From Zetaproteobacteria bacterium CG1_02_55_237 (GTDB lineage: Bacteria; Pseudomonadota; Zetaproteobacteria; Mariprofundales; Mariprofundaceae): a DNA stretch of 64,000 bases. The notes beneath the pieces are model-generated. The model saw only the letters and a program-made list of their open reading frames with translations, made no database searches and was not told the origin of the DNA. Below, one piece after another: positions 22,239 to 23,696 of this stretch. The DNA lies in assembly GCA_001871195.1 (NCBI GenBank), contig MNXA01000048.1:1-64000 (forward strand). The letters run 5' to 3'. A program made the position numbers and the translations under genes. Each line of letters begins with the position of its first letter. The stretch's first letter is position 1.

Positions 22239-22706
22239 CTATTCCGTCAGCGTATTCATTTGTCGCAAGGCTTCATAAGCAACGATGGCACAGGCGGAAG
22301 AAAGATTCAGTGAGCGAACCGGGGCATCGTGGCGCATGGGAATGCGCAGCGGGCTGATCTCATTTAACACATGCTCGGGCAGACCACGTGATTCCGGTCC
22401 CATGACCAGAACATCACCGGGGGAGAACCGTGTCTGCCAGATTGTTTGTCCTGCTTTGGTACTCAGTCCGTACCAGTTGTGATCCTTCAGTGTATGCCGA
22501 ACCTCAGCCCAGTCCTTGTACTCCCGAACATTCAGGTAAGGCCAGTAGTCCAGTCCGGCCCGCTTGAGTTGCTTGTCGTCAATTGTAAAGCCCAGCGGGT
22601 GCACCAGATGCAGGTGGATGCCCGTGCAAGCGCAGAGGCGGGCGATATTTCCAGTATTGGGCGGTATCTCCGGTTCGAAGAGGACGAGATTCAGGTCTGC
22701 ATTCAT
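22239..22706 (-). CDS. trmL: tRNA (cytidine/uridine-34 2'-O)-methyltransferase
   Basis: 155 aa SPOUT methyltransferase that modifies the wobble base of certain leucine tRNAs. Seen: NLVLFEPEIPPNTGNIARLC at the N-terminus, HPLGFTIDDKQLKRAGLDYW, the knotted SAM-binding part VLVMGPESRGLPEHVL and SLNLSSACAIVAYEALRQ. Full length. Its first 26 codons and leader are duplicated immediately upstream (see the 22630 and 22811 repeats). Confidence 0.95.
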   Translation of the reverse strand: MNADLNLVLFEPEIPPNTGNIARLCACTGIHLHLVHPLGFTIDDKQLKRAGLDYWPYLNVREYKDWAEVRHTLKDHNWYGLSTKAGQTIWQTRFSPGDVLVMGPESRGLPEHVLNEISPLRIPMRHDAPVRSLNLSSACAIVAYEALRQMNTLTE

Positions 22707-22762
22707 GCGCTTGCACGATGCCGACGGATGGAGGCATTCGCAAGGGGTGAGTCATGCGGACT
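22630..22762. repeat. 133-bp direct repeat, copy A (5' end and leader of trmL)
   Basis: Matches 22811-22943 at an offset of 181 bp. About 77 bp lie inside trmL and 56 bp are its leader. The leader halves look identical in the two copies. The coding halves differ at seven bases or so, all at third codon positions. Confidence 0.9.
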
Positions 22763-22797
22763 TGTTCCGCATGATGAGGGGAAAGCGTTTTTCCCCT
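22752..22797 (+). promoter_or_regulatory. Double-hairpin element, copy A
   Basis: TCATGCGG / CCGCATGA (22752-22759 / 22767-22774) forms a perfect 8-bp stem. AGGGGAAA / TTTCCCCT (22777-22784 / 22790-22797) forms a second 8-bp stem with loop GCGTT. A related pair follows repeat copy B at 22934-22990. Confidence 0.6.
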
Positions 22798-22803
22798 ATG
22801 TAT

Positions 22804-22887
22804 TCAGACAGCGCAGAGACGGGCGATATTGCCTGTGTTAGGCGGTATCTCCGGTTCGAAGAGGACGAGGTTCAGGTCTGCATTCAT
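22804..22887 (-). pseudogene. Duplicated 5' fragment of trmL
   Basis: A minus-strand frame gives the same first 26 residues as TrmL (MNADLNLVLFEPEIPPNTGN, then IARLCA), then V and stop. Codon differences from the intact gene are all synonymous (for example AAT-ACT-GGA against AAC-ACA-GGC). That pattern means both copies diverged as coding sequence before this one was cut down. It keeps the trmL leader upstream, so it may still be transcribed. Confidence 0.85.
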
Positions 22888-22943
22888 GCGCTTGCACGAT
22901 GCCGACGGATGGAGGCATTCGCAAGGGGTGAGTCATGCGGACT
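22811..22943. repeat. 133-bp direct repeat, copy B
   Basis: Second copy of the trmL 5' end plus leader, within the 357-bp region (22707-23063) between trmL and ribE. Apart from this repeat, the two hairpin pairs and a CCGG-rich inverted repeat near 23035-23050, nothing else was recognised in that region. No FMN riboswitch core was found. Confidence 0.9.
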
Positions 22944-22990
22944 GGCTTGATGCATCTATGGCGCATGCCGAGGGGAGAGCGATATCTCCC
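22934..22990 (+). promoter_or_regulatory. Double-hairpin element, copy B
   Basis: CATGCG / CGCATG (22934-22939 / 22962-22967) and GGGAGA / TCTCCC (22973-22978 / 22985-22990). The second stem differs from copy A by a paired change (GGGGAAA/TTTCCCC to GGGGAGA/TCTCCC), a compensatory substitution that argues for a maintained structure. It ends 73 bp before ribE. Confidence 0.55.
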
Positions 22991-23063
22991 GATTGGTCTT
23001 GCACAATAAACCTGCAATGTTTGCGGATGCATCGGCCGGACATGCCGGTTAGAGTGCGGCCAC

Positions 23064-23696
23064 ATGTTTACCGGCATTATTCAGGATGTGGGATGCATCT
23101 CGTGTATCAGGCACGAGCAGGCACAAGCCCATTTCAGTATTTCAACCTCGTTGGATACATCCAACTGGCATATCGGCGATTCCATTGCCGTGGATGGCTG
23201 CTGCCTGACGGCAACCACTATTTGTTCTGACAGTTTTGATGTCACCTTGTCGTTGGAAACGCTTAAATTGACCGTATTTGCTTATGCAGAGGAAGGACGC
23301 AGGGTCAATCTTGAGCCTGCACTGCGCATGGGTGATGCGCTCGGCGGGCATATGGTCAGCGGCCATGTGGACGGTCTTGGCAGGCTGGAAGAACTGAAAG
23401 AAATCGGTGAGCACCGTTTTATGCGCTATTCTCTGCCTAAAGAGTTGTTGCGCTATGTGGTGCACAAGGGCTCGGTGGCAGTGAATGGTGTAAGCCTGAC
23501 AGTGAACGAGGCCGATGATCACGGCTTTACCGTGAACCTCATTCCGCATACGCTGGCGAACACCAACCTCGGCGATCTGAAGGCGGGTGATGCCGTCAAT
23601 ATTGAGACCGATCTGCTCGGACGCTATGTCGAACGTTTGATGGCACAACAAGGACAACCGGCACAGCCGGAACAATCAGGAGAACTTACAGGATGA
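23064..23696 (+). CDS. ribE: Riboflavin synthase, alpha chain
   Basis: 210 aa; makes riboflavin from two lumazine molecules. Two lumazine-binding repeats are visible: MFTGIIQDVGCI...GDSIAVDGCCLT and GGHMVSGHVDGLG...GSVAVNGVSLTVNEADDHG. The C-terminal tail is Gln/Pro-rich (QQGQPAQPEQSGEL), slightly longer than usual. First gene of the rib operon; its stop overlaps the ribBA start (ATGA). The region upstream carries the tandem repeats described separately. Confidence 0.96.
   Translation: MFTGIIQDVGCISCIRHEQAQAHFSISTSLDTSNWHIGDSIAVDGCCLTATTICSDSFDVTLSLETLKLTVFAYAEEGRRVNLEPALRMGDALGGHMVSGHVDGLGRLEELKEIGEHRFMRYSLPKELLRYVVHKGSVAVNGVSLTVNEADDHGFTVNLIPHTLANTNLGDLKAGDAVNIETDLLGRYVERLMAQQGQPAQPEQSGELTG

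Follow-up and report, generated by a model that had tools for sequence, protein, structure and literature searches.

Hairpin units and displaced gene starts upstream of trmL in Mariprofundaceae

A double hairpin is found twice upstream of the rib operon in the 64,000-nt stretch of Mariprofundaceae (Zetaproteobacteria) DNA analysed here (the window), which is contig C15 of its own genome, G000 (2.33 Mb). This arrangement raises the questions of which gene the hairpins belong to and whether they act as RNA or as DNA. The original prediction saw in them a possible undescribed cis-acting RNA for ribE or trmL, arranged in tandem, and took an A-T to G-C paired change between the copies as evidence of selection on structure. 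The double hairpin is present in two copies at 22752-22990, as described. The paired change in the GGGGA stem was confirmed as well, but it amounts to a single event in a single pair. Three features had not been described: the repeat consists of the trmL start together with its leader, a third hairpin is present, and a truncated trmL start closes the distal copy (Table 1).

The repeat unit at the trmL start

The 134-nt direct repeat is not intergenic filler, as it is made up of trmL codons 1-26 and 56 nt of leader. On the minus strand each copy takes the form of a leader with three hairpins before trmL, and in the direction of this gene a decayed leader is followed by a displaced start, a good leader and the intact trmL. 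The paired hairpins lie within a unit of 181 bases that places a hairpin element and a replacement gene start next to the old start, which has been pushed aside.

Table 1. Features of the trmL locus in the window and R2 repeats beside tRNA-Ser and tmRNA genes.
Feature	Position	Strand	Description
trmL	22239-22706	-	tRNA (cytidine/uridine-34 2'-O)-methyltransferase, intact, 155 aa (ORF)
Codons 25-28 segment	22624-22633	-	GCGCTTGCAC; break point of displaced copies (after GCGCT) and partner of leader arm
134-nt direct repeat	22629-22762 (proximal) / 22810-22943	-	96% identical, spacing 181
Leader arm	22707-22716	-	GTGCAAGCGC; ten bases directly before trmL ATG, complementary to 22624-22633 (codons 25-28)
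Proximal leader element (model R1)	22707-22809	-	103 nt; R1 match 22704-22802, E 2.5e-23 by construction
Hairpin 3	22710-22744	-	CTTGC.GAATGCC/GGCATC.GTGCAAG
Hairpin 2, copy 1	22752-22774	-	TCATGCGGA (22752-22760) / TCCGCATGA (22766-22774)
Hairpin 1, copy 1	22778-22796	-	GGGGAAA (22778-22784) / TTTCCCC (22790-22796)
Displaced trmL start	22810-22887	-	codons 1-26, then GTC TGA; six differences from intact start, all synonymous
Distal decayed leader element	22888-22996	-	13-nt insertion in hairpin 2, compensated hairpin 1
G000 L272	G000:C44:20398		R2 in partial 3' end beside tRNA-Ser(UGA)
G000 L274	G000:C21:1400		R2 in partial 3' end beside tmRNA
G000 L276	G000:C20:622		R2 beside tRNA-Ser(GGA)
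G003 L255, L261			two units, spacings 182 and 227; tRNA-Ser/tmRNA-type layout
G015 L278			tRNA-Ser/tmRNA-type layout
G070 L251	1123-1679		three tandem 162-nt units, hairpin repeat and tmRNA-end copy, beside ssrA

The two copies differ in their state of preservation. The insertion in copy 2 splits the hairpin 2 stem (CATGCG, 22934-22939; CGCATG, 22962-22967), and the compensated hairpin 1 reads GGGAGA/TCTCCC (22973-22990). Copy 1 reached a folding energy of -25.4 kcal/mol on the plus strand, compared with -12.6 kcal/mol in dinucleotide shuffles (z -5.1), and the good leader reached -36.6 kcal/mol on the minus strand, compared with -23.5 kcal/mol in shuffles (z -4.0). The stability of copy 2 did not stand out from that of shuffles, either on the plus strand (z -0.9) or as the decayed leader on the minus strand (z -0.3). 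The two copies share an identical leader between the 3' half of hairpin 2 and the ATG (22707-22765 and 22888-22946), with the identity running on to codon 5, although synonymous sites nearby differ, which may reflect later conversion or constraint in G000.

Distribution of the leader and its possible role as RNA

A covariance model of the leader (R1) was built from five sequences, those of G000 (twice), G002, G003 and G013. In five copies the three-hairpin structure pairs 82.9% of cells, compared with 77.3% after shuffling (0 of 500 as high), sliding the partners lowers pairing to 36-47%, and five pairs have changed on both sides. The conservation of the stems as structure in relatives supports the original prediction in part, but the paired change that had been offered in its favor does not by itself prove selection on RNA; an interspersed palindromic repeat of the same family of genomes, R2 (see below), covaries much more strongly. 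The insertion model given below, if right, also cautions against taking paired changes between two palindrome copies, alone, as evidence of a regulatory RNA.

Among the 74 family genomes searched, of which 72 have trmL (E<=0.001, paralogues counted in), R1 matched the trmL locus only, in G000, G001, G002, G003, G013 and G015, and nothing convincing was found at other places in 399 genomes of the phylum. Weak matches in G080, G139 and G099, the ones that were read, are apparent chance matches in coding DNA. The hosts of the leader (groups g1, g11 and g13) group together as one clade of the TrmL tree, with support 87/82, and most relatives have a trmL without any leader. Upstream of trmL in G015 (L053), a perfect foreign 16-bp hairpin (GCTTAGACGAAAGCAA/TTGCTTTCGTCTAAGC) breaks hairpin 2 of the leader.

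The gene neighboring trmL is ribE in G000 and G002, gmk in G013 and G015, where trmL follows it, and other genes in G001 and G003. In the last two genomes trmL and ribE are on separate contigs and the leader is beside trmL. The hairpins belong to the trmL start, not to the riboflavin genes, and of the cis-acting role proposed earlier only an action on trmL may be retained, a connection with ribE and the rib operon being unsupported. We consider very improbable both an FMN riboswitch and intrinsic termination, whether for the rib operon or within the trmL leader. Two weak terminator-like stems were flagged on the plus strand, but their tails (GATTGGTCTT, CTATGTATTC) are T-poor and the minus strand has no such stem; the element does not follow ribE in relatives; and no Rfam family reached its gathering threshold anywhere in the window, which places the leader outside Rfam and agrees with the earlier statement that no known FMN riboswitch core is present.

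A role in translation of trmL deserves closer consideration. According to this model, a cis-acting leader RNA would control trmL by forming a 10-bp helix between the bases preceding the AUG and codons 25-28, which would mask the start and exclude hairpin 3, and the tandem copy would be an unimportant later duplication. The arm is complementary to codons 25-28 at 10 of 10 positions in G000, G001, G003, G013 and G015 and at 9 of 10 in G088 and G097, even where no displaced copy exists (G001, G015), and at no more than 8 of 10 in every other genome, with 4 of 10 in G002, which has an altered leader end. A leader base covaries with the third positions of codons 25 and 26, being A-T in g1 and G-C in g11 and g13, with a change from G-C to A-T in G003. 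The long-range helix was predicted with a probability of 1.00 in G001, G003, G013 and G015 and of 0.52 in G000, in which the two competing forms are within about 1 kcal/mol of each other (-65.1 and -64.3); hairpin 3 overlaps the arm and thus competes with the helix. This covariation, together with the predicted helix, is the best argument for an RNA role, and the confinement of the leader to trmL is in line with it. Like 5'UTR translational switch RNAs, the leader would offer two mutually exclusive pairings around a start codon. Unlike them, it has no ligand or conserved core, is restricted to one small clade and does not keep hairpins 1 and 2 constant: both are lost in G001 and hairpin 2 is interrupted in G015, while the arm and hairpin 3 are altered in G002. 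Furthermore, the leaderless trmL genes of most relatives, the failure to find any promoter-like site in 22600-23120 and the presence of target-complementary arms beside breaks in tRNA and tmRNA genes, where masking of a start codon would be meaningless, all weigh against control of trmL by a leader RNA, which we regard as possible but rather doubtful.

Displaced trmL starts and their divergence

In the regions upstream of trmL that were read, seven genomes from three genera carry an incomplete trmL start immediately ahead of the intact gene: G000, G002 and G003 (group g1), G013 (g11), and G088, G097 and G033 (g9). Several of the genomes compared are fragmented MAGs. The same break points, near codon 26 or at codons 13/14, recur across the three genera. 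The break ...CTCTGCGCY|TGCAC, after codon 26, is common to the displaced copies except those of G002, where it falls 8 nt earlier, and G033, where it follows codon 14 and another hairpin repeat begins. Wherever codons 1-26 are duplicated the repeat spacing is 173-200 nt, and in G088, G097 and G033 an R2 repeat occupies the junction at codons 13-15 in the displaced copy. A distant-copy search found no displaced starts far from trmL, and among 80 trmL loci on genome contigs the same duplication was seen only in SZUA-26 and OFTM13, two Zetaproteobacteria already known. What might be a third and older remnant of trmL in G003 was too weak to accept. In G002 and G013 (L042, L185), the displaced start is open in frame through the hairpins, and its TGA stop overlaps the trmL start codon (GTGA, ATGA).

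Such an arrangement might have arisen by simple local tandem duplication, through slippage during replication or a template switch at palindromes, with later gene conversion and decay. Palindromes promote such events, the units are regularly spaced, the non-coding stretch of G000 described above is the same in both copies, and hairpin 3 alone stands in tandem copies in G003. The two starts are identical in G002 and 97.5% identical in G013, so that a recent duplication would fit these genomes too. However, a free duplicate should gather mostly replacement changes, and simple local duplication therefore fits poorly with the differences seen elsewhere. All six are synonymous in G000 (P 3e-4 if neutral; if the working copy adds its constrained share, the expected synonymous fraction is ~0.43 and P is near 0.006 by hand arithmetic), as are 12 of 13 in the Mariprofundus genome G088 (P 1.4e-6 if neutral), despite the interruption of its displaced copy, and 8 of 12 in G033 (P 0.005); in G097 the excess (6 of 13) is not significant. 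Nearly all differences in G000 and G088 are synonymous: in several genomes both starts were working genes under coding constraint while they diverged, and they were brought together only afterwards.

The relationships of the two starts in G088 are also contrary to a local origin. Codons 1-13 of its displaced copy are 90-92% identical to the native genes of G094, G084 and G086 (92% to G094), whereas its working start is 72-79% identical to those of native relatives (72% to G094); the remainder of the gene shows 72-88%, and the flank upstream is native. The displaced start of G088 is the native one, and the working start resembles close relatives less. Two once-functional trmL alleles have apparently been put side by side, imported rather than simply duplicated, and local duplication appears unlikely. 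In g1, g11 and g13, whose TrmL proteins form a single clade, one old insertion followed by gene conversion is possible.

Hairpin repeats at other genes and a model of insertion

The R2 repeat first came to notice in the trmL copies of Mariprofundus. Modeled from nine sequences, it comprises three hairpins in a chain of about 75 nt, with CGTCC before an A/T-ended stem. Its model contains 28 double-change cells, with a covariation of 0.399 compared with 0.114 after shuffling, and corresponds to no Rfam family. Matches were found in 52 of the 74 family genomes, with up to 64 per genome, often in tandem at about 74 nt. In G000 and its sister genomes, several copies lie in partial tRNA-Ser or tmRNA 3' ends beside the intact gene, within the T-loop sequence GGTTCGA|ATCC (Table 1), and the layout of partial gene end, hairpin element and intact gene is the same at tRNA-Ser and tmRNA as at trmL. 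The far ends of these units are, by eye, complementary to the target (GGGGTGGG/CCCACCCC, GAGAGAGGG/CCCTCTCTC), like the trmL arm. The orientation of the element relative to the gene differs between the tRNA and trmL cases, which argues for a process at the DNA level. In G061 (L249:1116-1273), an R2 copy within the CRISPR repeat that ends an array reads as a clean insertion without target duplication, the other repeats representing the empty site. At the same locus, a partial CRISPR repeat and the start of the element appear again 115 nt further on.

R1 could not be assigned to R2, as the R2 and R3 models gave no significant match to it: none in the window, G002, G003 or G013, and only a weak one in G015 (E 2.8). 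Traits common to R1 and R2 are the hairpin order and a linker, CCCCTCGCC(A/C)TGCGG, recognized by eye only; it is thus by architecture and linker that the trmL element is tied to the mobile repeat. R1 was never found away from trmL in the family and phylum searches, which counts against mobility of its own.

Displacement of the gene start explains the tandem copies best, in place of the tandem riboswitch arrangement suggested earlier, and we give about an even chance to the model in which the trmL array arose by repeated insertion of a hairpin unit at a fixed place inside the trmL start, the old start being displaced. The unit would consist of about 100-120 nt of hairpins plus replacement trmL codons 1-26 and would join the chromosome after codon 26, so that trmL would be completed by the new gene start, with the old one displaced upstream and left there as a dead fragment. 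It may move as DNA, either through single-strand hairpins used by some recombinase or by recombination with incoming DNA. The target-complementary arm might be part of the mechanism. Masking of the trmL start by the arm in mRNA, in competition with hairpin 3, could be a secondary effect.

Integrative elements that replace a gene end include SXT in prfC and islands in tRNA genes. The trmL and tRNA-type units resemble them in that the native end lies on the far side, the new end completes the gene, the break is fixed within a conserved gene, and repeats accumulate in tandem at one site. They differ in being only about 160-230 nt long and filled with hairpins, with no integrase or cargo found. 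A displaced native end and a foreign end that completes the gene are found in G088, and G000 shows the synonymous-only divergence; the other cases are weaker. No integrase was present upstream of trmL among the matches listed, no recombinase gene could be tied to the element in or near it, and the element was not found on any plasmid, phage or viral contig. A large island or prophage in trmL was rejected on the basis of that same integrase result and the lack of distant trmL starts, and an IMG/VR provirus near trmL was set aside because it ends at the neighboring tRNA gene, not in trmL. A viral contig with an integrase gene (L221, IMG/VR 2770939628) ends at a tRNA gene (GAA anticodon by eye) adjoining an unrelated trmL. 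A literature search returned nothing on trmL/yibK as an integration site or on Mariprofundus repeats.

A new class of hairpin-only, site-specific integrating elements of about 160-230 bp in Zetaproteobacteria may be proposed tentatively. Its members would carry a replacement gene end (tRNA-Ser, tmRNA or trmL) and a target-complementary arm and would pile up in tandem, the trmL array being a member specialized on a protein gene. REP/BIME palindromes, of the GTAG and CGTC families, the latter type without a dedicated transposase, are likewise interspersed and extragenic (PMC3733652). R2 differs from them as a three-hairpin chain of about 75 nt that is often in tandem, and its gene-end copies lie outside the REP description in that source. 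In mitochondrial genomes, mobile double-hairpin elements and GC clusters are described as short, mobile, hairpin-forming DNA (PMC7218506, PMC4478555); unlike those, the elements considered here are bacterial and accompanied by a displaced and a replacement gene end. If the proposal is true, units barely larger than a tRNA gene can invade essential, conserved genes without breaking them, because each unit brings its own gene end. It would also connect three puzzling observations, namely palindromic repeats that lack a transposase, partial gene copies next to tRNA and tmRNA genes, and riboswitch-like clusters of leader hairpins.

R2 also occurs as a component of longer sequences: at L247, L256, L262 and L266 (G000, G002), it forms part of a larger composite repeat, whose long palindromes end in gcttcttt / aaagaagaag.
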